Positions 18,852 through 57,833 of a stretch of DNA of 64,000 nucleotides are shown here, in pieces. Under the pieces are notes generated by a model. That model had not been told where the DNA came from. It saw only the letters and a list, made by a program, of their open reading frames with translations, and searched no databases. The stretch is from Clavaria fumosa. Taxonomy: Eukaryota > Basidiomycota > Agaricomycetes > Agaricales > Clavariaceae. The first letter of the stretch is position 1; every line of letters begins with the position of its first letter. The stretch lies in NCBI GenBank assembly GCA_951802425.1, contig OX637796.1, positions 4,574,162 to 4,638,161 on the forward strand, in the 5' to 3' direction. A program made the position numbers and the translations under genes.

Positions 18852-18926
18852 ATGTTAGTATTGTGTCAGACTTAGTCTCACGGTTCACACAACTTAACGT
18901 AAGGTCGATGATGATGATACTAACAT
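18852..18926 (-). promoter_or_regulatory. Self-primer pair of element B
   Basis: In the element's sense, ATGTTAGTAT inside the 5' LTR (plus 18917-18926) complements ATACTAACAT just outside it (plus 18852-18861), 10 nt, two nt beyond the LTR. Compared with family A the third base of the LTR copy is G instead of C, and the outer copy changes in step, a compensating pair. Confidence 0.78.
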
Positions 18927-19168
18927 AAGGGGAAAAGGGTACAAGTAAGAAAACGACATGGTATATATAGTGAACGCTTCGGGAGTTGCCGGCATTTCCA
19001 CGCTCGGACCCCGTGCGTCACGTGATGCGTCCAGGCCCGGGTCATGTGATTTTCCCATTATGTAATCCACCACCCGTTTGGGTCATGTGACTCATCCGCA
19101 AACTTCCCGCAACTCTTTTGCGATCCTTTCTTGGCCTTTCCAACCTGCTTATGTAAGCGATCCTGACA
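18864..19168 (-). repeat. 5' LTR of element B (305 bp)
   Basis: Same ends and length as 13675-13979. In this copy several CACGTG cores have become CATGTG, and other CpG sites show TG or CA. Confidence 0.93.
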
Positions 19169-21744: not shown

Positions 21745-22758
21745 TTAAGGCTGGGCATCTTGACCTGCCAACTTCGCCTTGTCAGGGTGTTGCTGGAAGA
21801 AGTCTCAGAGCAACAGCATGATGTTAGTGAGGTTGTGATGAGGTTCCCATGTGTTCTCCTCCACCAGATATCCCAACCACTTCACCAAATACTTCACCCC
21901 CCATCCAACCTTCTTGACATCAAGAATGGCCTCAACATCATACTCCAAGTGGTTGTCATCGATTGTGGGCAGAGGTAGGTTCTGAGAGGGGAAGGAGGGA
22001 GCAGTGTATGGGGTGAGCAGCACTTCATTGAAGACCTGGTGTATGCGCCAGGCTCAAGGGAGCTTGAGCTGATATGCTGCTGGTCCCACCTTCTCCTCAA
22101 TGATGAAGGGTCCTGCCTGCTTGTTATCAAGTTTCTTGGATGGCCAGTCCATTTTCAAGTTTCAGGTGTCCAGCCAGACTAAGTCCCCTTTCCCATATTC
22201 TCGACTTGGCTGCTTTCCCTTATCATAACTGGCTTTCATTGCATCTGCTGCCTTCGCCATCACTTCCCTGGCTGCTCTTCAGGTCTCTGTGAGCTTGGCC
22301 ATCCATTCGTCTGCCACAGGGTTTACTTCCGAGGGTGGCCGAATTCCTCCATTCCATGGGTGCCGGCCATACTCTAGGTAGAAGGGCATGAATCCAGTGG
22401 CTGAATGCTCCTGGTTATTGAGCGCAAACTCAGCCGTAGACAGCCATTCTGCCCAGTCGTCCTGTAGGTGGTCCACATAGGCCTGGAGATACACCTCAAC
22501 CTCCTGGTTGACCTGTTCCGTCTGTCCATCTGTCTGGGGGTGGAAGGCTGTACTCAGGTTTGCCTTAACTCCAATCATCCCATAGAACTCCTTCATGAAC
22601 CTAGACACAAACTGGGTGCCCCAGTCACTCACAACTTTCTGCAGAACTCCATGGTCATGGAAGACCCAGTCACGGAGGATATGAGTGGCACCAAGTCCAG
22701 TGAGGTCAAGGCTGATAGCCTCGATGAGGGTCCACTTTGTGAACTTGTCCACAATGAC
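21745..22758 (-). pseudogene. Element G integrase core and chromodomain
   Basis: The frame is broken in several places. The chromodomain is at about 21805-21980 (LEYDVEAILDVKK, KYLVKWLGYLVEENTWEP). The integrase core at 22279-22752 has VVSDWGTQFVS, with Trp where the family has Arg next to the second catalytic Asp, and TEQVNQEVE. The sequence is interrupted at 22758, within the MDKFTK motif, by element H. Confidence 0.85.
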
Positions 22759-23246
22759 TGTCGGGCTTGTGACAGCAAAACCCCTTTGGTGTGCAAGGGT
22801 AGAGCGAAGGGTCTGTTCAGTTTCTAATGCTAGTCGATAGTCCTGGCGGACTTGTCTCTCGATGTACAGGGAATACTCCTGCAGTAGTCGAAGTGTCTGG
22901 TAATAAGTCTGGGGATTGGCTCGGAGTAGTCGGTCCTTTATCCAGGTCCTTGTATACCTTTGGTAATACTCGAACCGATAGAGGTTCTGCTCAATCGATG
23001 GGTGGCTGGTGAAACTCTCAGGAGGGATGACTTGCGACCTTAAGGGTGGGAAGACGAATCCTTCCAGTGCGAAGTTCTCAGCAGCGACGTTTGCTGTCAG
23101 ACTTAGTTGAGGTCTCTCAAGTAAGTGTATAGACGAAAAGATCGAAGCTAGGGTACATGTGGGCTGGTCCCAGGTCTTATATACTCTAGCTATGGGCTGT
23201 ACGTGATGTATGAGTCATTGATTAAATATCGGAATCTGATAGATGA

Positions 23247-23530
23247 TCAGGAAAGCTGCGCGCTTGCACTGGAATGATGAGTCCGAGCAGTGTCAATCTT
23301 TGTTGGGATCTTTGTGATGATGATGTCATCTGCGATCAGATAGGGTCCCCGCTTCAATGCATTACATTATGTCGGCTGCATCTGATCTTGTTGGGGATAT
23401 GATCGGAGGGTTAGCCGATCTGTGATCGAGCTGTTCTGAGTCATGATCACTTGATCGATCGGTGTGATGCAGTGATCGAGTGAAACTGATCTTTGATCAG
23501 AGATCTTCTTAGGGGTGATCGTGTCTGGTG
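23247..23530. promoter_or_regulatory. GATC-rich interval between divergent LTR promoters
   Basis: About sixteen GATC tetramers occur in under 300 bp, mostly as TGATCGA, TGATCA or TGATCTT, where about one would be expected by chance. The interval separates the gag-pol TATA box (minus strand, about 23176-23183) from a TATA-like GGATAAAAGG on the plus strand (about 23579-23588) that stands 50 nt before the antisense ATG. The same layout is in the other H LTR at +7402. It may be a shared control region for both promoters. Confidence 0.55.
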
Positions 23531-23630
23531 GATAGGGGTCTGCCCAATCGAGGTTGAGATCAGTCTGTGGCGGTTATTGGATAAAAGGACGGTCTTCCTC
23601 CTTTCGTCGTCCCTTCAGAGTCTGCCTGCT

Positions 23631-24417
23631 ATGTGCTTCCAAGGCCACCACCTTGTCGAGTTCTTCCACAGCTCCTCCCTCTTCGCTCCTCGTACTGGAA
23701 TCAAGCTCTCTTGCGATACCTTCCACTGGTGGGTTCAACTCGTCCCTGCCGATGCGGACCTCTACTGGGTCCTCGACCGATGCTTCGCCTGTGGGGATCC
23801 CTCCCACCTTGTCAAGGATTGCTCCTTGACCCAAGGTCCTTACCGACGTATCTGTGACCTTCTCGAGGACCCTCATGGTGAGTTAGCCGAGCTGCTTCTC
23901 TCTGTCTCCAGTAAGTCTGATTCTTTATAGATTGGGACTGGGCTCCTCCCCGCCCTCCCTCGCCAACTGCTTGGGCCACCACCCCTTGGGGTGATCAAGG
24001 TACTTGGTACCAAGGTGGGCAGGATTGGGCTGAGATTGGTTCTGGTCCTGTACATCCGGCTTACCGTCCCCAGGTCCAGATCCCCAACCTCTGGATACCC
24101 CGTTGGTGGCGCCTCCTCCGTCGCCCTCCCTTCCTACCGTTGACCTCCCCCCCGCCTATTCCCCCCTCCCGTCTCCTACTCTGGACGACGGAGGTTCTCT
24201 CGGCGCTGTGCGAGATCTGCGAGAGGCTGCCCTGGAGGCGGGAATCTGGGATGGTCAGTTTGCCTCCCATCCCTTGAGGGTAGCTCTCGGGTTCGTGGGT
24301 GAGTCTGACTTCTCAGACTCTTCAGATGAGTCATGGGAAGAGGAGTCTTGGGGGTCTGAGTACGGCACCTCGGGCTCCTCCCTTGATGAAGAGGGGTCTT
24401 GGCTTTCTTTCGTGTAG
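23631..24417 (+). CDS. Antisense LTR gene: CCHC zinc-knuckle protein, 2 exons, 207 aa (left copy)
   Basis: This lies in the U3 part of the H LTR, opposite to gag-pol. Exon 1 is 23631-23910, exon 2 24074-24417, intron 163 nt with GTAAGT donor and CCCCAG acceptor. The ATG at 23631 is the first after a TATA-like box at about 23579. The protein has a hydrophobic/aromatic region (LSCDTFHWWVQLVPADADLY), a CX2CX4HX4C knuckle, CFACGDPSHLVKDC (about residues 52-65), a Pro/Ser-rich middle, and a conserved C-terminus (REAALEAGIWDGQFASHP) with an acidic Ser/Glu/Trp tail. The knuckle is of the Gag nucleocapsid type, suggesting origin from a retroelement Gag. The H2 copy shows mostly silent differences. 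Function unknown. Confidence 0.72.
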
Positions 24418-24562
24418 ATAAGTATTGTACTTATCTTGCGATAATATATAGTTGGGGTTTAGCCCCTTGTTCGCCTGATTTGCATGGTGTTCCTTAAGTT
24501 AAAGAATTGAAATTTGCTGGCCTGGTAGTACGGACGACGCTTTCATGACACGACCCTCTCTC

Positions 24563-27500
24563 TTAAGCTTCACCGGAGATTTTCGAGGATGAACCACGGG
24601 CCTTCCTCCTCTTAGCAGTCATCCAGACGAACTCTGGATGGGTGTCATGAAAGTGTCTGATTGCCTCTTCCGCGTGTCCCAATTCCTTCTCTGGTTTCCA
24701 CATGTCTTCGTTTGGTCCATATCCTTCCCATCCGACTAGGTACTGTTTCTGACTTCGCCATAGCCGTCCATCCTTGATTTCACCAATCTCGTACTCCTCC
24801 TCTCCCTCCACTTCCACTGGTGGTGGTGGGGGTTCTACTCGTCCTGGAATCATTGATTCTTCGTATGGATATAGCAGGGAGATGTGAAACACTGGGTGGA
24901 CCCGAATCGAGGCTGGTAGCTCCAATTTGTAGTTGACGTCAGAGAGAACTTCAATGACTTCAAATGGTCCTAGTCGTCGATCGGCCAGTGTCTTACTGGG
25001 GGCGGTGGTGGTGATATTTCTGGCATCTAACCACACCTTCTGTCCTAGTTTAAATGGTGATTCTTTCTGACGGTCCTTGTCGTAGTACCGCGCCATTTGT
25101 TCCTGAGACAGCTTCATAGCTGCTCTCAGTTCGTCCTGTACCTGATGGAGATGGCTGACTACTTCCTCCGCCTTGGGTACCCCTGTATCCTTTCCTGTGT
25201 CAAATGTCATCCTTGGATGATATCCCCTCGCAGCATAGAAGGGAGATTGCTTAGTGGTGGTGTTAACATTGTTGTTGTAGGCGAATTCTGCCATTGGCAG
25301 GTAGTGGCTCCAGTCATTCTGTCGATAGCGACAGAAGAGTCGTAAGTATTGCTTTAAGGTCTGATTGATTCGCTCGGTCTGTCCATCTGTCTGTGGGTGG
25401 TATGCAGTGGAATAGGCCCCCTGTACACCTAACTTCTTGAACACTCCTCTCATCAGCTTGGATGTGAATTGTGTTCCTCGGTCTGAGATCATCTTCTCTG
25501 GGACTCCATGCAGCTTCCAGATATGCTGTAAATACAAGTCAATGGTCTCTTCTGTGTCAATGTCTGACTTGACTGGAATGAAATGTGCCTCCTTGGTTAG
25601 ATGGTCTGCTACCACCCAAATTCCATCGTATCCTGCCGACTTAGGTAATTCCACGATGAAGTCATTGGTGGCCACCTGCCAAGGTCGTTCTGCTGGTGGA
25701 ATGGGTCGAAGTTCCCCTCTGGGCTTCTGCGCCCAGTTCTTCTTCCGATTGCAGGTGTCGCAGGTTTCTACGTAATGCTTGATGTACCTGGTCATCCCTG
25801 GCCACCAGTAGTTCCGGGAAATAAGTTCCATTGTCTTGTAGACCCCTGGATGGCCTACTTCTAGTGAGTCGTGGTGCAGTTTAACCAGATCTCTTCGTAT
25901 CCCTGGGTTGTCTGGTACGCATACCTTCCCCTGAAAGAGTAGCAACCCATCTTCCAGGTTCCAATCTTCCAGTCCTTTTCGCAGTTGCCTTGGTCCCATC
26001 TTCAGGAGTTTCATTGCTTCCATCACCTCCGGGTCGTATTCTACTTCCTTCCTAATTCGTTTCCGAATAGGGTGATCCTGGAGGCTTGAAGCATGTCCTC
26101 TCTTCATGGCACAGATCCTAATCCTTTCTGGTTGTAGCACCTCTGGGGAGTTCAGCTGTAGGACCTGCCATCCTTGGTTGTCTGGGGTTTCTGGCTTATG
26201 GTCGGGCCTCCGTGATAGTTTGTCTGGCTTCCCTCCCAGTCGTCCAGGTCGATGCTTGATCTCGTAGTCAAATCGTGTCAGGAATAAACCCCACCTCGCC
26301 TGTCTCCGGGTGAGTGTCTGTGCTCCCCCAAAGTACTGCAAGTTCTGATGGTCAGATAGAATGGTTACCCTGTGTCGTGCCCCTTCCAAGTAATGTCGCC
26401 ACTGCTTAAGCGCCAGAATGATAGCCAGTAGCTCCTTGTCGTAAATCTGGTAGTTTCTTTCGGCGGCATTCATTGCTTTTGACATGAAGGCTATCGGGTG
26501 CACATTCCCATCCTCTCCCTTCTGTGACAACACTGCTCCGACTGCAAAGTCTGAAGCATCACACTCCACTACATAGGGCTCCTCCGGATTTGGGATGATC
26601 AAGACAGGGGCGTCCTTGAACTTATCCTTGTACTGTCTGAATGCTTGTCTTTGTTCCTCTCCCCATTCAAAGACCTTCCCTTTCTTCAATAGACTAGTCA
26701 AAGGTCTGACCTGTTCAGAGTACCCTTTGATAAACCTTCGGTAGAAATTGCCGAACCCCAAGACTTCCTGTATCCCCTTCACAGTTGTTGGTTCTGGCCA
26801 GTCCATGATCGCCTGTACCTTTGCTGGATCCATTCTGATTTGATTGTGTGAAATCAAAAACCCTAAGTATTCCGTCTCCCCACGGAAGAACTTGCACTTC
26901 TCTGGTTTACAGAATAGGTCATTCTCTTGTAGTCGTCGAAGCACCTCCAGGACTGTCGTCACATGCTCCTCTCTTGTCTCTGAGAATATCAGGATGTCGT
27001 CCAGGTATACCACCACGTTGGCCATATCTTGGAATATGTCGTGCATCATCCGTTGGAAGGTTGCCGGGGCATTACACAGTCCGAACCCCATAACCTCCGG
27101 TTCATACAATCCTTCCTCAGTCACGAAGGCAGCCTTGTACTGGTCTCCTTTCCTTACCCGGACGTTATTGTATCCCCACCGTAAATCCAAGGCCGTGAAG
27201 TAATAGGCCAAGGCCAGCTTGTCAAGTAAGGTCTGAGTCAAGGGTAGTGGGAATCGATCTTTGATGGTAATTGCATTCAGCTTCCTATAATCAACCACTA
27301 ACCTCAGGCTACCATCCTTTTTCTTGATGAAGAACACTGGTGAGGCTGCTGGTGACCCTGGTCCTTCTGACTTCCTGATGTACCCTTTGGCTAGGTTCTC
27401 GTTCAAGTACTCCATCAAGGCTTCTCTTTCTTTTGGGGACATGGCGTACTTCTTGGAGTTAGGTAAGGGCGCTCCTTCCTCCAAGTTTATTGCGTGGTCC

Positions 27501-28426
27501 CATGGTTTCCTCTCGGGGAGGCGTTCTGATGCCTTTTGTTCGAACACCTTCCTGTACCTTCGAAACTCCTTGGGTACCATTTCTTCGAACGTCCGTACCT
27601 TCTCTTGTCGAAGTACCTGCTCTGCTATTTGCTGTGACTTGGTAAACCCTGCCGCAATTTGCATGATCCTTTCTGTATCCGTAACCTCGAACACTTGGTC
27701 TCCCTCTTCGGGTTGGTCATCTTCATTGGGTTCTTCTTCTTCTCCCTCTAGACATTCAGTGGTGTCCTCGAATTCCTTCATCAACCTCTGAAAGGTGTCC
27801 TTTGCATTTATTCCTCCAAAGCTCATTGTCACTGGGGTATAGCGCCTCCCTTTCTCTTTCGTGCAGCTCACCGGGCACTTGGAGAATGTGAACTTCCCTG
27901 TCCTCCAATCTATGGTTGGGTTGTGTCTCCTCAACCAGTCGATTCCTATGATGACGTCTTCGACCCCTATGTCTGCTATCAATAGGTTCTCCTTTGATTC
28001 ATGCCCCTGTGCCTTCAGGGTCGCCTTCACTTGATGGGTGATCTTCCCGATCTGGTTAGGGGTCCCATCAATATTGGTCAGGGAAATTGCCTTTCTGAGG
28101 TGCTGTCGCCTGAATCGCTTGGCCAGTCTTGGGGATATGAACAGACTTGAGGCCCCACTGTCCACCAGTGCCCTTACCTTAGTATTTATTCTCTCAGTCT
28201 CCAGCATGATGTCAAGATAAATATGGTCATCATTTGGGACTGATCGAATAAATACAGGTGCAGACTCTGGGGTACTATAGGTCAAAGAGTTTGTGGGTTC
28301 TCCCTTCAACCTTCCTGAAAATCCTCTTCTTTCTTGGTTTCTTCGTTTGCTGTTCCTCGGATTTGCATTTTCTGTCGTTGAGGACACTCGCGAGCCAGGT
28401 GTCCTTTCTGGTCGCAAATAAAACAT
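24563..28426 (-). CDS. pol: Element H Pol polyprotein (protease, RT, RNase H, integrase, chromodomain), 1287 aa
   Basis: One uninterrupted frame. Protease shows VRALVDSGASSLFIS (about residue 85-100). RT shows LRLVVDYRKLNAI and the catalytic box VVYLDDILIF. RNase H shows VECDASDFAVGAVLSQ and YDKELLAIILALKQW. The integrase zinc domain is an H-H-C-C type ending CDTCNRKK; its core has ATNDFIVELP, MISDRGTQFTS and QTDGQTERINQTL for the D,D,E residues. A chromodomain closes the protein (YEIGEIKDGRLW, QYLVGWEGYGPNEDMWKP), as in chromoviruses that target heterochromatin. The frame is -1 relative to gag with an overlap of 121 nt (28306-28426), so a -1 ribosomal frameshift is the likely way of expression; no canonical slippery heptamer was found. 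All catalytic residues are present. Confidence 0.95.
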   Translation of the reverse strand: MFYLRPERTPGSRVSSTTENANPRNSKRRNQERRGFSGRLKGEPTNSLTYSTPESAPVFIRSVPNDDHIYLDIMLETERINTKVRALVDSGASSLFISPRLAKRFRRQHLRKAISLTNIDGTPNQIGKITHQVKATLKAQGHESKENLLIADIGVEDVIIGIDWLRRHNPTIDWRTGKFTFSKCPVSCTKEKGRRYTPVTMSFGGINAKDTFQRLMKEFEDTTECLEGEEEEPNEDDQPEEGDQVFEVTDTERIMQIAAGFTKSQQIAEQVLRQEKVRTFEEMVPKEFRRYRKVFEQKASERLPERKPWDHAINLEEGAPLPNSKKYAMSPKEREALMEYLNENLAKGYIRKSEGPGSPAASPVFFIKKKDGSLRLVVDYRKLNAITIKDRFPLPLTQTLLDKLALAYYFTALDLRWGYNNVRVRKGDQYKAAFVTEEGLYEPEVMGFGLCNAPATFQRMMHDIFQDMANVVVYLDDILIFSETREEHVTTVLEVLRRLQENDLFCKPEKCKFFRGETEYLGFLISHNQIRMDPAKVQAIMDWPEPTTVKGIQEVLGFGNFYRRFIKGYSEQVRPLTSLLKKGKVFEWGEEQRQAFRQYKDKFKDAPVLIIPNPEEPYVVECDASDFAVGAVLSQKGEDGNVHPIAFMSKAMNAAERNYQIYDKELLAIILALKQWRHYLEGARHRVTILSDHQNLQYFGGAQTLTRRQARWGLFLTRFDYEIKHRPGRLGGKPDKLSRRPDHKPETPDNQGWQVLQLNSPEVLQPERIRICAMKRGHASSLQDHPIRKRIRKEVEYDPEVMEAMKLLKMGPRQLRKGLEDWNLEDGLLLFQGKVCVPDNPGIRRDLVKLHHDSLEVGHPGVYKTMELISRNYWWPGMTRYIKHYVETCDTCNRKKNWAQKPRGELRPIPPAERPWQVATNDFIVELPKSAGYDGIWVVADHLTKEAHFIPVKSDIDTEETIDLYLQHIWKLHGVPEKMISDRGTQFTSKLMRGVFKKLGVQGAYSTAYHPQTDGQTERINQTLKQYLRLFCRYRQNDWSHYLPMAEFAYNNNVNTTTKQSPFYAARGYHPRMTFDTGKDTGVPKAEEVVSHLHQVQDELRAAMKLSQEQMARYYDKDRQKESPFKLGQKVWLDARNITTTAPSKTLADRRLGPFEVIEVLSDVNYKLELPASIRVHPVFHISLLYPYEESMIPGRVEPPPPPVEVEGEEEYEIGEIKDGRLWRSQKQYLVGWEGYGPNEDMWKPEKELGHAEEAIRHFHDTHPEFVWMTAKRRKARGSSSKISGEA

Positions 28427-29697
28427 GTTCCTTCTTTGAGTCGTCTCATCCGTTCTGCTGGGGCGAGTCTGGAGGCTTTGATCGCTACTCTGTTCATGTC
28501 TCCCCTAGCTGTCTCTCCTTTGAAGGGTTGTCTGGGCATCTTCCAGACTGGTCCCCTTTCTCTGATTCTTGTTAGGATACTCTGTTCATACTGAATGGCC
28601 ACTCCAAGCAGTCCGGACACCGTCTCTGGTCTCTCGACATGCACCAGGAGATCCTTGATTGCTGGTTTCAATCCGTGGTAGAACATTTCTCCTAAGGCGA
28701 TTTCATTGTATCCACTTGGTACTGACCATCTGGTGAACATGGCATGGTACTCAGATACTGTCTTCTCCTGTCTGAGTTCCCTGAGCTTTGTTCTGGCCAT
28801 CTGTGGTTCATTGATGGGACCCCAGAGTTTGGCAGCTTCCTCGAGGAGCGCGTTCCAATCACTGAGAAAGGGATGTGGCTGCGGGGTCCCTATTGTTGTC
28901 AATAATCCATAGGCCCAAGTCTTTACTACAGGTCCTTCAAACCATCGCAGGAACTGTAGGCACCTCGCTTCGTCTTGACCGGTTCCAAAATAGAATGGGT
29001 ATGCTGCGAAATATAGGTATGCCTGCACCACGAATGGTCCCCAGTTCTCTCGCTCTCCATCAAATGGGACAGGGGGTGTTGGCTTTGGTGGTTTAGGTAT
29101 TCCTATCCTTTCTGGCATTCCGATCATTCCTGGGTACCCTCCTCCTGGTGGGCCTCCTCCTGGTGGGCCTCCTCCTGGTGGGCCTCCTCCTGGTGGGCCC
29201 CCACTTGGTGGTTCCCCTCCTGGCGGTCTCCTCCCGAACGGTTCACTCCCAGAAGGGTCCCTCCCTGGTGGGCCTCCACCTGGTGGTTTGCTTCCGGTCC
29301 CTCTTGATAAGGTGAAGGGGTTAAACTCTGCTGCAGGTGTGGTGCTTTCCTTTACTCCTTCGAAGGGATCTGTCGACATGGTGACCCTTCCTTTGCCCTT
29401 TGGTGCTGGTGTTGGTGTTGTCGGTTCCTGCTTGGGTATAAAGTATTCTCGTTCTGCACTCACGGAGGTCTCCACCTCTGGTAGTCCCATCCTCGCCCTA
29501 TATGTGGCTTCTTCTTCCCTGTGTGCGGCCATTCTGGCTTCAAACTCTCTTTCCTTCTTGAAGATATCTTCTTCTAGACTTGATGCCATAAGTGAAGTCT
29601 GTCTTTCTGCTGTATAGGCCGTGGCAATCTTTGCCCCTCCCTTGCTCCCTGGAATATCTTCTTTAACGGAGCTCATCGGTATGACTTCTTCTTTCAT
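28306..29697 (-). CDS. gag: Element H Gag, 463 aa
   Basis: Capsid/nucleocapsid precursor. The N-terminal part is charged and probably coiled (KKEREFEARMAAHREEEA, about residues 45-65). A Pro/Gly repeat region follows (about 130-190). The retrotransposon Gag domain shows PFDGERENWGPFVVQAYLYF (about 212-230) and KLRELRQEKTVSEY. A CCHC knuckle, CFICDQKGHLAREC, lies near residues 424-437. Its ATG at 29697 is, by my scan, the first ATG in any frame downstream of the proposed transcript start at 30551. The frame is open and ends within the pol overlap. Confidence 0.93.
   Translation of the reverse strand: MKEEVIPMSSVKEDIPGSKGGAKIATAYTAERQTSLMASSLEEDIFKKEREFEARMAAHREEEATYRARMGLPEVETSVSAEREYFIPKQEPTTPTPAPKGKGRVTMSTDPFEGVKESTTPAAEFNPFTLSRGTGSKPPGGGPPGRDPSGSEPFGRRPPGGEPPSGGPPGGGPPGGGPPGGGPPGGGYPGMIGMPERIGIPKPPKPTPPVPFDGERENWGPFVVQAYLYFAAYPFYFGTGQDEARCLQFLRWFEGPVVKTWAYGLLTTIGTPQPHPFLSDWNALLEEAAKLWGPINEPQMARTKLRELRQEKTVSEYHAMFTRWSVPSGYNEIALGEMFYHGLKPAIKDLLVHVERPETVSGLLGVAIQYEQSILTRIRERGPVWKMPRQPFKGETARGDMNRVAIKASRLAPAERMRRLKEGTCFICDQKGHLARECPQRQKMQIRGTANEETKKEEDFQEG
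29137..29290 (-). repeat. Tandem Pro/Gly codon repeat in H gag
   Basis: Tandem copies of a 15-bp unit (plus strand CCTCCTCCTGGTGGG) encode GGPPG repeats, perfect at about 29149-29203 and degenerating to PPGG variants around them. Unit number is likely to vary between copies of the element. Confidence 0.8.
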
Positions 29698-30551
29698 GCG
29701 GGTTCCTGCAAATGATCTCTATGATCCTTCCTTCCGGGTTATGCTCGATCTGTACTTCTGCTCTGAGTGCGTCAAGCCAGGTGATTGGGTACCCTAGGTT
29801 GGCGTAGTCTTGGTGTTTAAACTCGAGTGCGGGTACAAATGAGATGACTGGATTTCTTTCTCGCTCTGCTATCCCTTCCTGGGCAGCGTATAATACTTGC
29901 AGGTTCCGATGTGCGGTTCTCCTCTGAATGCTTCTGGGGGGTATTACTCTCCCTAAGGGTCGTGTCCACAATACTGCGGCGTCTAAGACTCGTCCCACTA
30001 CGTTCTGTTCCAAATTGGTAACAGAGATATCTGAATCGTCTGGGTCAACGTGTCTTCTTCTTCTTCGAGGTAGTCTCTCTCGTCTTTCTTCAGAGGTGTC
30101 TGTGGTCTCCCAATCCGGTTCTCTCTCTCGCTCTAGGCTTACTGAAGAGCTTCGATCTTGTGTCGGGCTTGTGACAGCAAAACCCCTTTGGTGTGCAAGG
30201 GTAGAGCGAAGGGTCTGTTCAGTTTCTAATGCTAGTCGATAGTCCTGGCGGACTTGTCTCTCGATGTACAGGGAATACTCCTGCAGTAGTCGAAGTGTCT
30301 GGTAATAAGTCTGGGGATTGGCTCGGAGTAGTCGGTCCTTTATCCAGGTCCTTGTATACCTTTGGTAATACTCGAACCGATAGAGGTTCTGCTCAATCGA
30401 TGGGTGGCTGGTGAAACTCTCAGGAGGGATGACTTGCGACCTTAAGGGTGGGAAGACGAATCCTTCCAGTGCGAAGTTCTCAGCAGCGACGTTTGCTGTC
30501 AGACTTAGTTGAGGTCTCTCAAGTAAGTGTATAGACGAAAAGATCGAAGCT
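29663..30551 (-). other. ATG-free open frame running from the 5' LTR through the primer site to gag
   Basis: From the proposed transcript start (plus 30551) one frame stays open for about 295 codons, across the LTR/internal junction at 30161 and the primer site, and stops at 29663-29665, 32 nt inside gag and in a different frame. It encodes varied, protein-like sequence (SIEQNLYRFEYYQRYTRTWI, YSLYIERQVRQDYRLALE, LEFKHQDYANLGYP). No ATG occurs in any frame over these about 850 nt. Possible readings: a protein made from a non-AUG start, an exon of a spliced message, or the relic of an N-terminal Gag part. The LTR half is also open in the diverged H2 copy. I do not recognise the product. Confidence 0.5.
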
Positions 30552-30585
30552 AGGGTACATGTGGGCTGGTCCCAGGTCTTATATA
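30148..30585 (-). promoter_or_regulatory. Promoter, transcript start and self-primer pair of element H
   Basis: In the element's sense: TATATAAG (plus 30578-30585), then AGCTTCGATCTT (plus 30540-30551) starting 34 nt later, and its exact 12-nt complement AAGATCGAAGCT (plus 30148-30159) one nt beyond the LTR. If transcription starts at the A of AGCTTC, the RNA 5' end can fold on the primer site, as in Tf1. Confidence 0.82.
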
Positions 30586-31952
30586 CTCTAGCTATGGGCT
30601 GTACGTGATGTATGAGTCATTGATTAAATATCGGAATCTGATAGATGATCAGGAAAGCTGCGCGCTTGCACTGGAATGATGAGTCCGAGCAGTGTCGATC
30701 TTTGTTGGGATCTTTGTGATGATGATGTCATCTGCGATCAGATAGGGTCCCCGCTTCAATGCATTACATTATGTCGGCTGCATCTGATCTTGTTGGGGAT
30801 ATGATCGGAGGGTTAGCCGATCTGTGATCGAGCTGTTCTGAGTCATGATCACTTGATCGATCGGTGTGATGCAGTGATCGAGTGAAACTGATCTTTGATC
30901 AGAGATCTTCTTAGGGGTGATCGTGTCTGGTGGATAGGGGTCTGCCCAATCGAGGTTGAGATCAGTCTGTGGCGGTTATTGGATAAAAGGACGGTCTTCC
31001 TCCTTTCGTCGTCCCTTCAGAGTCTGCCTGCTATGTGCTTCCAAGGCCACCACCTTGTCGAGTTCTTCCACAGCTCCTCCCTCTTCGCTCCTCGTACTGG
31101 AATCAAGCTCTCTTGCGATACCTTCCACTGGTGGGTTCAACTCGTCCCTGCCGATGCGGACCTCTACTGGGTCCTCGACCGATGCTTCGCCTGTGGGGAT
31201 CCCTCCCACCTTGTCAAGGATTGCTCCTTGACCCAAGGTCCTTACCGACGTATCTGTGACCTTCTCGAGGACCCTCATGGTGAGTTAGCCGAGCTGCTTC
31301 TCTCTGTCTCCAGTAAGTCTGATTCTTTATAGATTGGGACTGGGCTCCTCCCCGCCCTCCCTCGCCAACTGCTTGGGCCACCACCCCTTGGGGTGATCAA
31401 GGTACTTGGTACCAAGGTGGGCAGGATTGGGCTGAGATTGGTTCTGGTCCTGTACATCCGGCTTACCGTCCCCAGGTCCAGATCCCCAACCTCTGGATAC
31501 CCCGTTGGTGGCGCCTCCTCCGTCGCCCTCCCTTCCTACCGTTGACCTCCCCCCCGCCTATTCCCCCCTCCCGTCTCCTACTCTGGACGACGGAGGTTCT
31601 CTCGGCGCTGTGCGAGATCTGCGAGAGGCTGCCCTGGAGGCGGGAATCTGGGATGGTCAGTTTGCCTCCCATCCCTTGAGGGTAGCTCTCGGGTTCGTGG
31701 GTGAGTCTGACTTCTCAGACTCTTCAGATGAGTCATGGGAAGAGGAGTCTTGGGGGTCTGAGTACGGCACCTCGGGCTCCTCCCTTGATGAAGAGGGGTC
31801 TTGGCTTTCTTTCGTGTAGATAAGTATTGTACTTATCTTGCGATAATATATAGTTGGGGTTTAGCCCCTTGTTCGCCTGATTTGCATGGTGTTCCTTAAG
31901 TTAAAGAATTGAAATTTGCTGGCCTGGTAGTACGGACGACGCTTTCATGACA
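30161..31952 (-). repeat. 5' LTR of element H (1792 bp)
   Basis: Same length and ends as 22759-24550 and nearly identical. Order in element sense: antisense gene, GATC-rich interval, TATA box, self-primer, then the LTR half of the open leader frame. Confidence 0.95.
31033..31819 (+). CDS. Antisense LTR gene: CCHC zinc-knuckle protein, 2 exons, 207 aa (right copy)
   Basis: Copy of the gene at 23631-24417 in the other LTR of element H: exons 31033-31312 and 31476-31819, intron 163 nt. I saw no difference in the coding parts, as expected for LTRs made from one template at insertion. In this LTR the gene reads outward, away from gag-pol and into the flanking element G. See the left copy for domains and doubts. 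Confidence 0.72.
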
Positions 31953-31957
31953 ATGAC

Positions 31958-41056: not shown

Positions 41057-42404
41057 TAAGGTTAGAGCTGGTTTCTGATGAATTTGGAGTTGACTGAAAG
41101 GTGCCTTTCTTTTTACCCACAATGTGTACCCTAGCCCAAGGACAAGCAAAAGAATGTTGTGGTGTTGAACAGGCAGCCTGTGCTTAGCAAGATTGGGAGG
41201 CTGGGTCTGGGTCTACTTGCTGAGATTTGGTTTCCAGGCACAAGGCACCAGTGTAGTAAACAGGGTTGTTCTCTATCATGAAAATTTAATCATAAAATGT
41301 CTTTAAACTTGAATTGAAGCCAGTCTAAGACCACTCAAGTCAGTTTGACCTTTTCCTGATACATCCACCCATGCATTTGCCCATGCAGTCACCCACTCAT
41401 TGTCCACTCATTGCCCACTCATTGCTCACTCATTGCCCTTTGATCAGTTTAGACTTCGTCTGAATTTGGAATTTACAATAAGGTTTAAATGTCAATCTAC
41501 TTTTCAAGTAATCATTGTGCCTAAATGTGAATCAAAACATTAAGTAATGACTACAATTTGGATCTGGCCCAAATTTGGTATTTTATTTCCGAGTTTGACT
41601 TAACATTTTGTGCCAGTTTTAACTCCAAATTTGGATTCAGATTTAAATGTTTATTTTATTCAAAGTTTAAGATGGCATTTAAATTGACATTTAGCCTGTT
41701 CTAAATACAGAAACCCCTGATGTGTCAGCTTGTCATTCCTGATAACTCCATCCCTTCACATCCAATGTGACTGTCTCACCCTCCAATCTAACCACATTGG
41801 ACCCTCTGACTGTGAGTATCACCAGACTGGCTTCAACAACCTTACCCACATTTGGTGCTGATTAGAATGCCATGTGGCCAGTGGAAGATTGGCAAGATTT
41901 GATCACATGACTTCCCCATTTCAACCTCTCATTGTTGGATGCCATGCCTATGCAAGACTCCTTACCAAGCAATATGTCATCCCTTACTGGTCCATTGCAT
42001 GCAAGATGTGACAAGCAACTTCTATACTTGGCCCTAACAACACAATTTCGATGAACACCAACATCTCTGCCAGTTGCCAAGTCCATTACCACCAATACAG
42101 AGCCTGTTCAACCCAGACAGAAGAGGAAGAGGTGGCCCAGTGTTTCAGACAAAAACTTGGCACCATTAGGTCCCCATGTTCCCTACCTCTCAGCTCAACT
42201 GAAGGAGAATGGTTATGTTCCACCAAAGAAGGGTAGCCAGCCTGCCAAGGCCAAGGCCAAATTGTTGAAGGGAGATTCTGTGGGGAAATCAGCAGGTATT
42301 GTAATGTGTGGGGTGCAGTGACTGGGTAGGACAGCATAACTTGTACACCTGGCCAACAAGATGTGGCACAACACAAGTGCAAAGACATACATACCCATGA
42401 GTTC
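41057..42404. other. No gene seen; short tandem repeat at 41390-41440
   Basis: A/T-rich, with a run of roughly four 12-bp units of the type CACTCATTGCCC at about 41390-41440 and repeated ATTTGGATTT-like words at 41460-41700. Short frames near 42050-42240 show no family marks. This is the sequence left of element C. Confidence 0.5.
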
Positions 42405-42693
42405 TATCAGACTGGGTCTCACACAACTTAAGCGTAAGGTCATGATGACAATACTAAGATAAGGGGAAAAGAGTACAAAAATGGAAAGGACGCAGTATAT
42501 ATAGTGAGAGCCTCGGGACTTGCCGACTTTCCCACGCTCGGACCCTCGGATCACGTGATGCGCCCAGGCCCAGGTCATGTGATCTTACAATTATGTAATC
42601 TGACCACAGCCACAGGTCATGTGACCTTCCAACAACCCTCCCCAGTTTCTCCACAACTGCACTTTGGGATGGCTTACATAAGCGATCCTAACA
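42405..42693 (-). repeat. 3' LTR of element C (289 bp)
   Basis: Plus-strand start TATCAGACTGGG, end CGATCCTAACA. ATCACGTGATGCG and GTCATGTGACC motifs and a TATATATA box inside. Confidence 0.92.
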
Positions 42694-42704
42694 TCACCCC
42701 CCTC

Positions 42705-45700
42705 TTAAGGCTGGGCATCCCAACCAGCTAGCTTGGCCTTGTCAGGGTGGGAGAGGAAGAAGTCCTGGAGAAGCAACATTACGTTAGTGAGGTTCCTACA
42801 GGGCTCCCAAGTGTTTTCCTCCACTGGATATCCCAACCACTTCACCAAGTACTTCACCCCATGTCCCACCTTCTTAACATCAAGGATCGCCTCCACATCA
42901 TACTCCAGGTGGTCATCATCAATCGTAGGGGGTGGAGGGAGAGGCAGGTTCTGAGAAGGGAAGGAGGGGTGGTGGTATGGTGTCAACAGCAACTCATTGA
43001 AGACCCGATGGATGCGCCAGGCCCAAGGGAGCTTGAGGCAATACCCAGCAGGTCCCACCTTCTCCTCAACTGCAAAGGGGCCTGCTCTCTTGTTGTCAAG
43101 CTTTTTACAGGGCCGGTCCATCTTCAAGTTTCTAGTATCCAGCCAGACCAGATCTCCCTCAGAGTACTCCCGACTTGGGCGTTTCCCCTTATTGTAGCTC
43201 TTCTTCATCGCTGTCACCGCTTTCTCCATTGCCTCCTTGGCTGCTCTTCAGGACTCTGTGAGCTTAGCCATCCACTCGTCTGCCGCTGGGTTCACCTCAG
43301 AAGGTGGCCGGAGCCCCCCATTCCATGGGTGTTGTCCATTATCAAGGAAGAAAGGTGTCTGTCCTGTCGCTGAGTGCTCACGATTATTAAGAGCAAACTC
43401 CGCAGTGGACAACCATTCAGCCCAGTCATCCTGGAGATGGTCCACATAAGCCCAGAGATAGATCTCCATCTCCTGGTTCGCCCGTTCCGTCTGTCCATCA
43501 GTCTGCAGATGAAAGGCAGTACTTGGATTTGCCTTTACCCGGATCATGGAGTAGAACTCCTTCATGAAGTGGGACACGAACTGGGACCCCCAGTCACTCA
43601 CAACCTTGTGAGGGACTCCATGGTCACGAAACACTTGATCCCAGAGGAGACGCGCCGCTCCAAGTCCTGTGAGGTCAAGCCCGATCGCTTCGAGCAGTGT
43701 CCGTTTCATGAATTTGTCGACAATAACAAGGATGGTGTTATGTCCACAGGAGAGGGGGAGGGGACCGACTATGTCCCATGAGATCACCGACCAGGGACCA
43801 TCAGGCACCAGATGGGGGTGCAGTGGGGCAGCATGCTTGGTACGGTCAGGCTTCGTCCGCTGGCATGTCTCACACCCCTGGGCATACCGATCCACATCTT
43901 TTACCATGTCTGGCCACCAATAACCCTTCACTAGTGCTGCTCTCAACTTCCGGGGCCCAGGGTGTCCAGCAGCAGGGAGGTCATGCTCGAACTTGAGAAC
44001 GGCCTCACGAGCTCCTAGGGGGACCCAAGTGACTATCCCCTTTCACCAGAGTCCAGCACGATCTCGTGTTCACTCATCATCAAGCTCCTCCGGCTTCTGT
44101 ATGTGTACTGCGCTATTTTTCTGGAGTAGCGTCTCCATTTCCAATGTGAATGACACACGGACTTCCGTTTCTGGGAAAACCTGCACCAGTGCATCCTCCT
44201 CCACCATCTCTCCATAGTCCAGTCTCCGGGAGAGTGCATCTGCCTTTGTATTCAACTTGCCAGTGCGATACTTTATCTCAAAGTCAAAGCACTGGAGCTC
44301 TCCAACCCAACAAACCTGCCTCGGCTTCAACGTCTGGGGCTTCCGGAAGTACTGGAGGTTTGCATGGTCCGTCCAGATCTCGATCATCTCCTCTGCTCCA
44401 ATGAGGTATGCTCGCCACTCACGAAGTGCCCAAATCACAGCCAAGAACTCCTTGTCGTACACATCGTAGTTCTTCTCAGCTGCAGTGAGGGCCTTGGAGA
44501 TATAGTCAACAACTCTCCAGGTTCCATCTGTCTGCTGCTGCAAGAGCACTCCACCAGTTGCCAGGTTGCTTGCATCTGTCTCTACCTTCCATCTCCCTTT
44601 GTCCTGAGGCAGAGCCAAGACTGGGGCCGATATGAGTGCCTGGCGGAGATCTTGGAAGGCTGCTTCCTCCTCCTCCTCCCATTTCCATGGAACATTCCCA
44701 GTCAGCCAGAAGAGTGGCTTTGCCCGGGCAGAAAGATTCGGGATGTGCCGGTGGAGGTAGTTCAGCATCCCATTGAACCTCTGGACATCTTTCACATTCT
44801 TAGGACATGGCCAATCTCAGACTGCCGCACCCTTGGCCGGATCATGCTCTAGTCTGTTGTGGGAGATCTTCATCCCCAGGAAGATGATCTCACTCTTCTC
44901 AAACTCGCATTTACTGAGTTTGAGACACAACCCATTCTCTCCAAACTTCCTCAAGACCCGGTCCATCCAGTACCGGTGTGTAGCCAAGTCCTCTGCAAAC
45001 ACAATGACATCATCCACATAGGCCCTCACATGTCCTCCTGCAATCTCCTCCCTCAACACATGATTCATGAAGTGTTGGAAGGTAGCAGGGGCATTCTGCA
45101 GTCCAAACCACATGACAGCTGGTTCGAAGAGTCCACAGGGTGTCAGGAAGGCGCAGCAGTGCTGGTGCTCAGGCCAGACCTGCATAGATGGGAAACCTCC
45201 CTTTGCATCAATCTTAGAGTAGATCAATGCTCCTTTAAGCACATCCACTGTGTCTCGGATGTGGGGGAGGGGGTACTTGTCCTTGATCAGGTGTGCATTC
45301 AGCCTCGAGTAGTCGATGATCGGCCGCAGCTTGTCCTTCTCATGTTTGAGGAAGAAGGGGCTGCCATACGGGGATTTCGAGGGCCGGATTCATCCAGAAG
45401 CAAGCTGCTCATCCACCCAATGGTTCATCTCCACCATCTCCTGCCGTGTCAAAGAATACAGCTTGGAAGAAAGGTGCTCAGGGTCCTTTTTGAACTCGAT
45501 CTTAATATCGAAGTCGGGTCAGGAGCGGGGAAGTTCATCCCACTTTGCTTCACTAAACACCAAAGGGTAGTGGCTGGGCCAATCGGGGGTAGGGCCAGAG
45601 TTGGGAAAATGGGTGTCCAGAATATTTGTGGATGCGAGGGTACTTGTTTTCAGGGGTGCAGAGGCTCGAGGGGATGGGGAACACTGTGGGGGGCAGCGGG

Positions 45701-55346: not shown

Positions 55347-55930
55347 TAAGAAAGCATGGCTATCATGAGTGCCAGTGTCACACAACAGACATGCTGTTGT
55401 CGGGCTTGTGACAGCAAAACCCTTTTGGTGTGCAAGGGTAGAGCGAAGGGTCTGTTCAGTTTCTAACGCTAGTCGATAGTCTTGGCGGACTTGTCTCTCG
55501 ATGTGCAGGGAATACTCCTGCAGTAGTCGAAGTGTCTGGTAATAGGTCTGGGGATTGGCTCGGAGTAGTTGGTCCTTTATCCAAGTCCTGGTATACCTTT
55601 GGTAATACTCGAACCAATAGAGGTTCTGCTCAATCGATGGGTGGCTGGTGAAACTCTCAGGAGGGACGACTTGCGACCTTAAAGGTGGGAAGACAAATCC
55701 TTCCAGTGCGAAGTTCTCAGCAGCGACGTTTGCTGTCAGACCCAGTTGAGGTCTCTCAAGTAAGTGTATAGACGAAAAGATCGAAGCTAGGGTACATGTG
55801 GGCTGGTCCCAGGTCTTATATACTCTAGCTATGGGCTGTACGTGATGTATGAGTCATTGATTAAATATCGGAATCTGATAGATGATCAGGAAAGCTGTGC
55901 GCTTGCACTGGAATGCTGAGTATGAGCAGT

Positions 55931-56627
55931 TGTCAGGGTCCTAACAAGGTTAGTGGCGAAGGGGTTAGCGGAGCGGAGCAGAGATGTTCTATCGGAATCC
56001 GGTCGGAGTCCGATATTGGTGAAACGGAGAAGTAACAAGAGGAAGGAGACTTATGGGACTGCGGCCTCAACGTATGTGTTGTGCCACCACGTATATACTT
56101 GTCCCTATTTATCAAACAAGAACAATACCTAAGAGAGAATCAGAACGTAAGTCAACTCCGAAGTGATCGGAGTCCGTCGGAGTGGGTCGGAGTTGGTCGG
56201 ATGACGTGGAGAACATCGAGGATGGTGAGGACAAAAGCTCAGAGATGTTTCTGGGATCAAGAGACGTTATATTCAAACTGAGGAGCAGGGAGATACAGGT
56301 GGAAATTTATACTGCAAGGACAGAGTATAGGAGTAATGTGAAACAATGTACTTATCAAATTACTAGGAGAGTTTCACCACTTGTGCCTGTGCAATTTTCT
56401 TGGAACAAAGAAACAACAACAAAAAAGCGACTCCCATGGGTCAAGGGTATCCTCTCAATGGTAAACAGAACAAGGGGATGGAGGGAGAAGGTTCTGGAAC
56501 GAAGTCCGAACGGTCCGAAGGCCGGCGGAGTGAAGTCCGATGAAGGTGCGGAGCGGAGCACACGGAGTTACGGCGGAGCGGATTGGAGTTGGTAAGGAGC
56601 TCGGAGTCCGGAGTGGGGGTCATAACA
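55931..56627 (-). repeat. J2: solo J-family LTR (697 bp) inside H2
   Basis: Ends TGTCAGGG and GGTCATAACA. Flanks GCAGT at 55926-55930 and 56628-56632. It lies in the interval between the two divergent promoters of the H-type LTR. Many CG dinucleotides are kept here (for example CGGAGTCCGTCGGAG) that are lost in J at 37640. Confidence 0.92.
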
Positions 56628-56972
56628 GCAGTGTCGATCTTTGCTGGGATCCTTGTGATGATGATGTCATCAGCGATCGGATAAGGTCCCTGCTTCAATG
56701 CATTACATCACGGTCAGCTGCGTCTGATCTTGTTGAGGATAAGATCGGAGGATCAGATAATCTGTGATCGAGCTGTTCTGAGTCATGATCACTTGATTGA
56801 TCGGTGTGATGCAGTGATCAAGTGAAACTGATCTTTGATCAAAGATCTTCTCAGGGGTGATCATGTCTGGTGGATAGGGGTTTGCCCAATCGAGGTCAGG
56901 ATCAGCCTGTGGCAGTTACTGGATAAAAGGATGGTCTTCCTCCTTTCGCCATCTCTTCAAAGTCTGCCTGCT

Positions 56973-57698
56973 ATGTGTTTCCAAGGCCATCACCTCGTCA
57001 AGTCCTTCCACAGCTCCTCCCTCTTCGCTCCCCGCACTGGGATTAAACTCTCCTGCGATACCTTCCATTGGTGGGTTCAACTTGTCCCTGCCGATGCGGA
57101 CCTTTACTGGGTCCTCGACCGATGCTTTGCCTGTGGGGATCCCTCCCACCTCGTCAAGGATTGCTCCTTGACTCAAGGTCCTTACCAGTGTATTTGTGAC
57201 CTTCTCGAGGATCCTCATGGTGAGCTAGCTGAGTTGCTTCTCTCTGTCTCCAGTAAGTCTGATTCTTTATAGATTGGGACTGGGCTCCTCCCCATCCTCC
57301 CTCGCCAACCATCTGGGCCACCACCCCTTGGGGTGACCAGGGTACCGTCCCCAGGTCCAGATTCCCAACCTCTGGGTACCCCGTTGGTGGTGCCTCCTCC
57401 ATCGCCCTCCCTTCCTACCATTGACCTCCCCCCCACCTATTCCTCCCTCCTGTCTCCTACTCTGGACGACGAAGGTCCTCTCGGCGCTGTGCGAGATTTG
57501 CGAGAGGCTGCCCTAGAGGCAGGAATCTGGGATGGTCAGTTCGCCTCCCATCCTTTGAGGGTTGCCCTTGGGTTCGTGGGTGAGTCTGACTTCTCAGACT
57601 CTTCGGATGAGTCATGGGAAGAGGAGTCTTGGGGATCTGAGTATGGCACCTCGGGCTCCTCCTTTGATGAAGGGGGGTCTTGGCTTTCTTTCGTGTAG
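56973..57698 (+). CDS. Antisense LTR gene in H2: CCHC zinc-knuckle protein, 207 aa
   Basis: Homologue of 23631-24417. Exon 1 is 56973-57252 (280 nt) and exon 2 57355-57698 (344 nt), exactly the same exon lengths, while the intron is 102 nt against 163 nt. The knuckle CFACGDPSHLVKDC and surroundings are unchanged in protein. From the APRTG motif to the end of exon 1 I count 16 codons with silent and 2 with replacing differences; from GAVRDL to the C-terminal region 11 silent and 2 replacing. Only the Pro-rich middle varies freely. The TATA-like GGATAAAAGG is kept at 56921-56930. This pattern points to selection on the protein. The gene is intact although the rest of the element is gone. Confidence 0.72.
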
Positions 57699-57833
57699 AT
57701 AAGTATTGTACTTATCTTGCAATAAAATATATAGCTGGGGTTTAGCCCCTTGTTCGCCTGATTTGCATGGTGTTTCTTAAGTTAAAGGATTGAAATTTGC
57801 TGGCCTGATAGCACGGACGACGCTTTCATGACA

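Follow-up and report, generated by a model that had tools for sequence, protein, structure and literature searches.

Antisense accessory genes of LTR retroelements are known yet unexplained; can such a gene sit in the long terminal repeat (LTR) itself, and what might it do there? The window is a stretch of 64,000 nucleotides from Clavaria fumosa, in which the original prediction placed, within each LTR of a gypsy element labeled H, a plus-strand gene of two exons with a CCHC knuckle, antisense to gag-pol and under selection. The plus-strand open reading frame, the motif, the predicted splice sites and a twin 7402 bp away are all there. We find a protein-coding gene, antisense to gag-pol, at both ends of elements from two related gypsy families; its constraint, about that of the end of pol, is visible between copies and largely absent after insertion.

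Element H (Table 1) has the traits of a Ty3/gypsy chromodomain element: LTRs with TG..CA ends, a 5-bp target site duplication (TSD; ATGAC, at 22754-22758 and 31953-31957), gag, the order PR-RT-RH-IN, and a chromodomain. Its LTRs differ at 1 base in 1792, and its two copies of the antisense gene (L001 and L002) have no coding difference. The primer-binding site points to self-priming of the Tf1/sushi type, and the start of the genomic RNA is put at 30551 because the 12-nt self-primer is there, 34 nt away from the distal end of the gag-pol TATA box. In the solo LTR H2, the frame of the original prediction is open, and exon 2 and intron 2 are partly deleted.

Table 1. Features of element H, of its antisense gene and of the solo LTR H2 (window positions).
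Feature	Positions	Strand	Remarks
Element H	22759..31952	gag-pol minus	Complete chromodomain gypsy (Ty3-type); LTRs, TSD, Pfam domains
5' LTR of H	30161..31952	-	U3 31952-30552, R/U5 30551-30161
3' LTR of H	22759..24550	-	Carries gene copy 2
gag ORF	28306..29697	-	Pfam Retrotrans_gag, zf-CCHC
pol ORF	24563..28426	-	Pfam protease, RT, RNase H, integrase, chromodomain
Primer-binding site	30148..30159	-	12-nt exact complement of inferred RNA 5' end at 30551
gag-pol TATA box	30578..30585	-	TATATAAG (minus-strand reading); diverges from antisense-gene TATA box
Inter-TATA region	30592..30980	.	17 GATC, 1.3 expected (mononucleotide shuffles)
Antisense-gene TATA box	30982..30990	+	GATAAAAGG; ATAAAA begins 50 nt before ATG
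Exon 1	31033..31279	+	82 codons + 1 nt; N-terminal domain, CCHC knuckle C51 C54 H59 C64
Intron 1	31280..31332	+	53 nt; GTGAGT...CTGAT...TATAG
Exon 2	31333..31416	+	D/G-WDWAPP...WATTPWGDQGTWYQ; inside the originally predicted intron
Intron 2	31417..31475	+	59 nt; GTGGGC...CTTAC...CCCAG
Exon 3	31476..31819	+	Proline-rich linker with PPxY, acidic/aromatic tail, stop TAG
Gene copy 2 (3' LTR)	23631..24417	+	Exons 23631-23877, 23931-24014, 24074-24417
Solo LTR H2	55398..57833	-	Diverged, interrupted; antisense gene from 56973, plus strand

The U3 of H holds the entire gene, antisense to gag-pol and with a TATA box of its own, and the best model has three exons and a product of 224 amino acids. The splice sites of the two-exon model are present, but its 163-nt intron holds coding sequence: change in the segment 31333-31416 falls mainly on third codon positions of a different frame, which receive 51 of the 81 non-CpG changes. 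On this codon pattern we rejected the 163-nt intron as the sole splice form and keep it as a possible isoform, with a longer exon 1 (donor after 31312) and exon 2 skipped; the GT of that donor is found in all kept copies, and the codon evidence for the 33-nt extension is ambiguous. As had been noted, the segments of H2 measure 280/102/344 nt, against 280/163/344 in H; the 102-nt “intron” reflects a deletion between about 31406 and 31463, so that H2 lacks the intron-2 donor of the three-exon model.

The pieces of this model are not equally secure. Exon 1 shows 0.27, 0.06 and 2.71 non-CpG changes per site at the first, second and third codon position, and the GT and AG of intron 1 are kept in 85 of 85 retained copies. 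For exon 2, the ratio pN/pS of nonsynonymous (N) to synonymous (S) change is 0.13 on internal branches and 0.48 on terminal ones, and its peptide is also present in P0003, P0005 and P0008. Intron 2 is the weakest piece: its GT is conserved at 99%, its AG at 100% and its CTTAC is unchanged, and the frame of exon 2 runs on into it with a pN/pS of 0.26 (internal) and 0.45 (terminal). Exon 3 counts 307 S:183 N in frame, summed over 14 lineages that are not independent, and its beginning, 31478-31613, is weakly constrained (pN/pS 0.54). Read in a wrong frame, which serves as a control, exon 3 is closed by a TAG in many of the diverged copies.

The genome searched comprises 48.8 Mb in 17 contigs. 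About 115 of the best 150 rows of the search are H-type, and the alignment holds ranks 1-90, the roughly 25 most diverged or fragmentary H rows lying outside it; counts on the tree use 84 copies, five fragmentary copies and one duplicate being removed. Frame and splice sites are intact in 67 of the 90 copies read. The premature stops, carried by 17 copies, are all CGA>TGA (21 of 21). On the tree, 10 exon-1 stops fall on terminal branches and none on internal ones, and two exon-3 stops fall on internal branches. CpG sites in the LTRs change about seven times faster than others (6.9 versus 0.98 changes per site).

Comparison of 15 elements with one yields a pN/pS of 0.10 for the gene (189 S:59 N) and of 0.13 for the last ~708 nt of pol in the same elements (204 S:91 N). 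Exon 1 is beyond doubt constrained, with a pN/pS of 0.06; its frame sums to 243 S:50 N over the 14 non-independent lineages. Exons 2 and 3 stand at 0.2, a smaller drop than is apparent, because the non-coding U3 and tail give 0.35-0.81, not 1, by the lineage measure. Maximum likelihood omega is 0.27 for the whole gene, 0.135 for exon 1, 0.56 for exon 2 and 0.36 for exon 3, values that exceed the lineage pN/pS and come from 51 intact copies including decaying tips. The originally proposed selection and orientation are borne out by codon statistics over 90 copies, by an unvarying TATA box on the strand of the gene, by conserved splice sites and by the same arrangement in a second family. Where 27 silent against 4 replacing differences were reported for the conserved segments of H2, our count over the 207-aa frame is 33:15, of which exon 1 makes up 21:4; the lineage sums and the intact copies place the pattern far outside chance.

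The picture differs within elements. Since insertion, 14 LTR pairs have accumulated N33:S19, against a neutral nonsynonymous share modelled at 0.69 (p = 0.37), a share that assumes a kappa of 3 and a sevenfold CpG rate and lies between 0.67 and 0.76 under alternative settings. Adding a fifteenth pair gives N39:S32, a departure from neutrality (p = 0.014); this odd pair, L063/L064, is 8.5 kb apart, has 13 S:6 N and is kept outside the main count, the 15 pairs having been picked by spacing without a prior rule. With constraint visible between copies, change since insertion summing close to neutrality in 14 of the 15 pairs, and exon-1 stops confined to terminal branches, selection seems to act in the replication of the element.

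The second family is a gypsy family whose reverse transcriptases (RTs) are 68-70% identical to those of H, and the exon-1 proteins of the two families are about 42% identical. In eight stop-free copies of its exon 1 (one, plus seven further copies selected among stop-free ones), the minimum changes at the three codon positions are 32/16/76. In the one copy read for structure, the counterpart of intron 1 is 52 nt long and interrupts the same codon, and TATATAAG begins 44 nt before the antisense ATG. Among RTs from the best 150 of 1840, the gene lies on both sides of 16 of 20 H-type RTs (on one side of 3, on neither side of 1) and of 4 of 4 family-2 RTs, and each of the 45 neighbouring genes runs antisense to its RT. 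The typing covered 111 of the roughly 115 H rows and 51 of the 62 rows resembling family 2; fragmentary and truncated copies were left out.

In the product, an N-terminal domain with a CCHC zinc knuckle is followed by a linker rich in proline and then by a tail of acidic and aromatic character. The knuckle, C-X2-C-X4-H-X4-C, is present in 79 of 81 gap-free copies; outside it, residues M1, H7, F11, S15, C28, F31, H32 and C75 are invariant, and they found no match in any comparison made. In the 67 intact copies the 37-residue tail has on average about 10.9 acidic, 0.06 basic and 6.0 aromatic residues. A PPxY motif is carried by every one of the 81 gap-free H copies and was not seen in the one family-2 protein read; it was therefore dropped as a defining feature of the family. 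The suggestion that the protein derives from Gag found no support beyond the knuckle: the sole notable alignment with the element's own Gag covers 18 knuckle residues, 7 of them identical, Pfam zinc-knuckle matches are all sub-threshold (zf-CCHC, 15.6 bits, under the cut-off of 20.8), Retrotrans_gag is unmatched, and no homology to Gag capsid was found. Among PDB sequences, the knuckle comes closest to those of retroviral nucleocapsids (E 0.0036 and weaker).

We infer that the gene is transcribed, and away from gag-pol as originally proposed, starting from a TATA box on its own strand; the family-2 copy read has the same layout. Both TATA boxes, ATAAAA on the side of the antisense gene, show no change in 84 copies. 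Sites of the GATC cluster between them changed slightly less than others (1.49 versus 1.96 changes per site), and the U3 of L091, read by eye, has CAGCTG-containing repeats. No U3 motif common to both families was seen, H being GATC-rich and L091 having CAGCTG repeats; we rejected the GATC cluster as binding sites of the protein, since conservation lends it little support and family 2 none.

It is tempting to conjecture that each U3 carries an autonomous, divergent and spliced gene for a regulatory protein of the element, most likely an activator of the divergent promoter region of the LTR, a reading that we favour with somewhat less than even confidence. The antisense gene would be transcribed from its own TATA box, back to back with that of gag-pol at about 400 bp, then spliced. 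Its product, presumably nuclear, would bind nucleic acid with its N-terminal domain and knuckle, and the tail would recruit cofactors for the activation of transcription. A full element would have two doses of the gene, and a solo LTR with an intact gene could stay a source of protein. Such a regulator needs a preference for acting in cis, because a trans-acting product should let defective copies ride, and yet the gene is about as constrained as pol. Against it also stand the CCHC knuckles, which bind RNA more often, the families without a common U3 motif, the slight conservation of GATC, and the fold models: two AlphaFold models have a poor mean pLDDT (60.8 and 64.8), and the second, searched with Foldseek against PDB, gave no match at E <1.

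A protein that acts on RNA is the content of another reading, possible and clearly less probable than a regulator, in which the product is an accessory nucleic-acid chaperone or assembly factor, working in the cytoplasm on element RNA or cDNA, for instance in packaging, self-primed reverse transcription or import into the nucleus, while PPxY would recruit a ubiquitin ligase with WW domains. The Gag type of the knuckle, the nucleocapsid matches, the PPxY kept in every gap-free H copy and a constraint close to that of the end of pol, which fits a cis-acting step, speak for it; but Gag has its own knuckle already, no similarity to Gag was seen outside this motif, PPxY is missing in the family-2 protein, and a separate antisense promoter is odd for a particle component. 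The mRNA would also be perfectly complementary to the U3 sequence at the 3' end of the genomic RNA, so that double-stranded RNA is expected. We consider it rather unlikely that the gene serves as an anti-silencing or self-defence factor against host RNA interference or cytosine methylation: the sense/antisense overlap follows from the map, and the fast CpG changes and the uniform CpG transitions among stops suggest that the host modifies the copies, but no domain of a known suppressor was found with Pfam.

The same perfect complementarity could make protein or antisense RNA a brake on copy number, much as Ty1 p22 or antisense RNAs limit transposition, and copies dispersed in solo LTRs would give a dosage feedback. 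Selfish copies should however lose a brake, while this gene is kept about as well as the end of pol, and the selection on exon 1 concerns a protein, not only an RNA; we hold this reading to be improbable. Still further down comes a host gene captured by the LTR and maintained by the host: introns, an own promoter and the many intact copies resemble a cellular gene, but the gene is common to two element families, change after insertion is near neutral in all pairs but one, and no free-standing homologue was recognised among the best 150 rows of each search of the genome, a minority of their surroundings being examined. That there is no gene, only a chance frame or constraint from cis-elements of U3 or a minus-strand frame, would suit an LTR region that is regulatory DNA, and is next to impossible: three-base periodicity shifts phase at the splice sites, exon 1 is recognisable as protein between families, and the codon statistics refute a chance frame. 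Of the minus-strand frames over exon 1, the one that shares the wobble position has 4 stops in the window copy, and the other two have a pN/pS >2.

MMTV sag and lentiviral nef are accessory genes that lie, at least partly, in U3 and are duplicated with it; they are sense-strand genes read from viral RNA, whereas the H gene is antisense. HBZ of HTLV-1, a bZIP protein, has most of its coding sequence outside the LTR, in contrast with the H gene, whose coding region is entirely in U3, in both LTRs. Closest in kind is brtn, reportedly described by Zhao et al. in 2011 as an antisense gene of Boty-like gypsy elements of Botrytis cinerea: there too, a fungal chromodomain gypsy element has an extra gene antisense to gag-pol. 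The excerpts available class it, like the antisense genes of Grande and Retand, between pol and the 3' LTR (PMC7264820), and describe a Boty-like element as two LTRs and an “internal gag-pol gene with brtn-106” (PMC4227169). The H gene has the conserved antisense frame of this aORF-3R type, but not its location: it lies wholly in U3, two per element and one per complete solo LTR. The frames of Retand (TRP28 domain) and Grande (gene23) are likewise antisense and kept in most copies, that of Grande has its own promoter, and the protein is suspected to be nuclear or DNA-binding; they differ in belonging to the internal region of plant elements, and the excerpts at hand mention no CCHC domain (PMC11963269, PMC7264820). 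As excerpted, a source on HBZ and other retroviral antisense genes places their promoters inside the 3' LTR (PMC10186651). No antisense gene inside an LTR was found in the literature searched.

Protein-coding genes can thus reside in solo LTRs, where both gene annotation and repeat masking could misread them, and the solo repeats left in a genome may go on producing a protein of the retrotransposon. More tentatively than for the regulator itself, we suggest that this is an undescribed LTR architecture, in which U3 is, besides a promoter, a full divergent spliced gene for a trans-regulator, and solo LTRs, commonly regarded as dead, live on as a scattered gene family making the activator. Each retrotransposition would then add two regulator genes, and excision by LTR recombination would not silence the element family. 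With divergent TATA boxes about 400 bp apart, a small protein and about 100 copies of graded age in one genome, the locus offers a test system. The protein pattern (M.....H...FF..S, C..FH, the CCHC spacing and ICxLLEDPH) would be the signature of an entire lineage of gypsy elements in fungi; with the patterns used, no relatives were found in IMG/VR and prokaryote genomes, and relatives of the product do occur among public genome and metagenome proteins.

Element H is a complete chromodomain gypsy element whose LTRs, of 1792 bp each, differ by one base, with ATGAC as its 5-bp target site duplication. Its ORFs are gag and pol, the latter with protease, reverse transcriptase (RT), RNase H, integrase and chromodomain (Pfam). 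Just internal to the 5' LTR, the minus strand carries a 12-nt exact complement of a stretch that starts at 30551; the gag-pol TATA box has its far end 34 nt from this start. Judged by sequence, the complement is a putative self-priming site of the Tf1/sushi kind. A self-priming stretch beginning there places U3 at 31952-30552, and the plus-strand gene at 31033-31819, repeated in the other LTR, lies entirely within it.

The original prediction gave this gene two exons, 31033-31312 and 31476-31819. Substitutions were counted on a tree of 84 copies, with CpG positions removed (6.9 changes per site, versus 0.98 for the others). They uphold a plus-strand coding gene but not its single intron, since the wobble phase shifts inside it: the changes per site by phase are 0.27/0.06/2.71 in 31033-31279, 0.49/1.58/0.42 in 31333-31475, and 2.10/0.45/0.36 at the 3' end of the gene. 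These shifts thus fit two introns around a further exon, and a spliced frame of 675 nt, or 224 amino acids.

Element H and the inner pieces of the three-exon model
Feature	Position	Strand	Remarks
Complete chromodomain gypsy element H	22759-31952	minus	LTRs, TSD, gag and pol ORFs
Intron 1	31280-31332	plus	53 nt, GTGAGT...CTGAT...TATAG; GT and AG in 85/85 copies kept for the count
Exon 2	31333-31416	plus	third-phase wobble in its own frame, inside the intron first proposed
Intron 2	31417-31475	plus	59 nt; CTTAC unchanged, upstream of CCCAG

Intron 1 has independent support: L091, the one copy read of a second gypsy family of the same genome (family 2), is interrupted at the corresponding codon by an intron of 52 nt, after ...ICDLLEDPH. 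A second line of support is the exon-2 peptide WATTPWGDQGTWYQGG, which is found again in the proteins P0003, P0005 and P0008. The least secure piece of the model is intron 2. Read on through it, the exon-2 frame has a pN/pS of 0.26 for internal branches and 0.45 for terminal ones, where exon 2 proper has 0.13 and 0.48, and this continued constraint makes a predicted transcript form that keeps intron 2 possible. The donor first proposed, at 31313, is fully conserved in the copies kept, and the codon evidence is ambiguous for the 33-nt extension of exon 1 up to it, so that the two-exon form may be an exon-2-skipping isoform. Exon 3 starts with a linker under weak constraint (31478-31613, pN/pS 0.54).

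The gene is intact, all splice sites included, in 67 of 90 copies under the three-exon model, and in 68 under the two-exon model. Sums over 14 diverged lineages, with the window copy as reference, give 243 synonymous to 50 nonsynonymous differences in exon 1 (pN/pS 0.06), 74 to 47 in exon 2 (0.19) and 307 to 183 in exon 3 (0.21); the alternative plus frames of these exons yield 0.69-3.4. The baseline is itself below 1, at 0.35-0.81 for non-coding U3 and tail in any frame on both strands. Maximum-likelihood omega over 51 intact copies is higher, 0.27 for the whole gene and 0.135 for exon 1, because the tips include decaying copies. When 15 elements are compared with one, the gene shows 189 synonymous to 59 nonsynonymous differences (0.10); for the C-terminal end of pol the figures are 204 to 91 (0.13). 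The gene is thus about as constrained as that end of pol.

Change since insertion looks different: differences within elements, between paired LTRs, amount to 33 nonsynonymous and 19 synonymous over 14 pairs (p 0.37 versus a neutral model with a nonsynonymous share of 0.69), and to 39 and 32 when a 15th, oddly spaced pair is added (p 0.014). Over the 15 pairs, coding sites have changed at least as often as non-coding ones (0.0070 vs 0.0054 per site). Stops fall on 0 internal and 10 terminal branches in exon 1, and on 2 and 7 in exon 3; each of the 21 premature stops, spread over 17 copies, is a CGA to TGA change. The simplest reading is that selection acts during rounds of transposition and that decay by CpG deamination follows, upkeep by the host being less simple. 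CpG sites change about 7 times faster than other sites in the 90 H LTR copies read, and these repeats seem to be subject to a process resembling methylation or RIP.

The encoded protein has eleven residues that are invariant in 13 diverse members (M1, H7, F11, S15, C28, F31, H32, C51, C54, H59, C75). Of 81 gap-free H copies, 79 have an intact knuckle, C-X2-C-X4-H-X4-C, and all 81 have a PPxY motif, which the one family-2 protein read lacks. In 67 intact copies, the C-terminal 37 residues include a mean of 10.9 acidic, 0.06 basic and 6.0 aromatic ones. Pfam returns only sub-threshold zinc knuckles, and a fold search with the predicted structure, a poor one, was empty. Fifteen public genome and metagenome relatives have E <1e-16 in one or both of two profile searches, and one more reaches 1.7e-12. 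Three of these proteins bear the name "hypothetical protein" and the others are nameless.

A search of the same genome with the gene gives at least 150 scored rows; among the matches listed, identity is 78-100% for about 115 and 35-47% for 35. An RT query, considered over the best 150 of 1840 candidates, finds 20 RTs at 93% or more, with the gene on both sides in 16, on one side in 3 and on none in 1, and four at 68-70%, all with the gene on both sides; each of the 45 neighbouring genes is on the strand opposite to its RT. The remaining 126 RTs, at 58% or less, have the gene on both sides in no case and on one side in six, three per strand. Since the both-sided antisense gene is confined, among these best 150 of 1840, to RTs of at least 68%, it goes with a clade, and we infer that it predates the split of H and family 2. 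Eight stop-free family-2 sequences of exon 1 require at least 32/16/76 changes at codon positions 1/2/3, with pairwise pN/pS of 0.14-0.7, mostly 0.2-0.3. The one family-2 LTR piece read is laid out as in H: TATATAAG begins 44 nt upstream of the ATG, and the opposite-strand TATA box lies another 384 nt upstream; in H, the TATA is 50 nt before the ATG, with about 400 nt between boxes, both unchanged in 84 copies.

In the accessible parts of PMC7264820, PMC11963269, PMC4227169 and PMC8365987, antisense extra genes are known from plant Grande and Retand and from fungal Boty (brtn), and are described between pol and the 3' LTR, in contrast with the H gene, which is wholly inside U3. Retroviral antisense genes have promoters within the 3' LTR in control, according to the accessible part of PMC10186651. 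Titles and abstract openings listed by searches for LTR-internal or antisense genes of such elements, in a coverage with most subscription journals outside it, mention no protein gene antisense wholly inside an LTR. Antisense extra genes of LTR elements are already known; the placement wholly inside the LTR appears to be new.

The gene is coding, antisense and constrained at the level of the element, in an architecture common to two families. Its plus-strand TATA box would drive transcription of the predicted antisense mRNA, which would be spliced, and the protein would bind nucleic acid. Activation domains are typically rich in acidic and aromatic residues and lack basic ones. Because the tail is of this composition, and because the gene adjoins, in every complete LTR, the promoter it would serve, we prefer to see the protein as a putative regulator of the divergent promoter region, probably an activator. 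Strict constraint on such a trans-acting protein asks for cis-preference. Rival explanations would make it an RNA or cDNA chaperone, an anti-silencing factor, or a brake on copy number. Whatever its role, the antisense mRNA would pair perfectly with the U3 part at the 3' end of the genomic RNA, and sense-antisense effects are therefore likely.

Between the divergent TATA boxes, the 389 bp at 30592-30980 hold 17 GATC tetranucleotides where 1.3 are expected, a possible operator array; their positions are only slightly better conserved than the surroundings. Right at the stop codon is a perfect 8-bp hairpin, GATAAGTA-TTG-TACTTATC (31819-31837), whose stem, by eye, is little changed in the 84 copies and whose loop is more variable.

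Eleven family-2 copies of exon 1, 84-93% identical, have matches that all start at residue 24 among those listed, and sit at distances of about 8-194 kb from the end of a contig (C1:5171674, C2:4848639, C3:21562, C4:4565940, C7:73039, C9:75786, C11:2866581, C12:2608401, C14:21367, C14:111047 and C15:7590 of G000, the genome of H itself). They seem to be a truncated LTR gene spread with a chromosome-end repeat. An old copy at G000 C10:447299-447943, with one open frame of 228 amino acids running through exon 1 and the region downstream of it, is a candidate domesticated or fused derivative. Other nested and inverted repeats of the window, about 75-98% identical among themselves, occupy 8563-12129, 13675-19168 and 42403-55347, the last including a 5.6-kb inverted pair at 96% identity (42403-47963 and 48362-53916).
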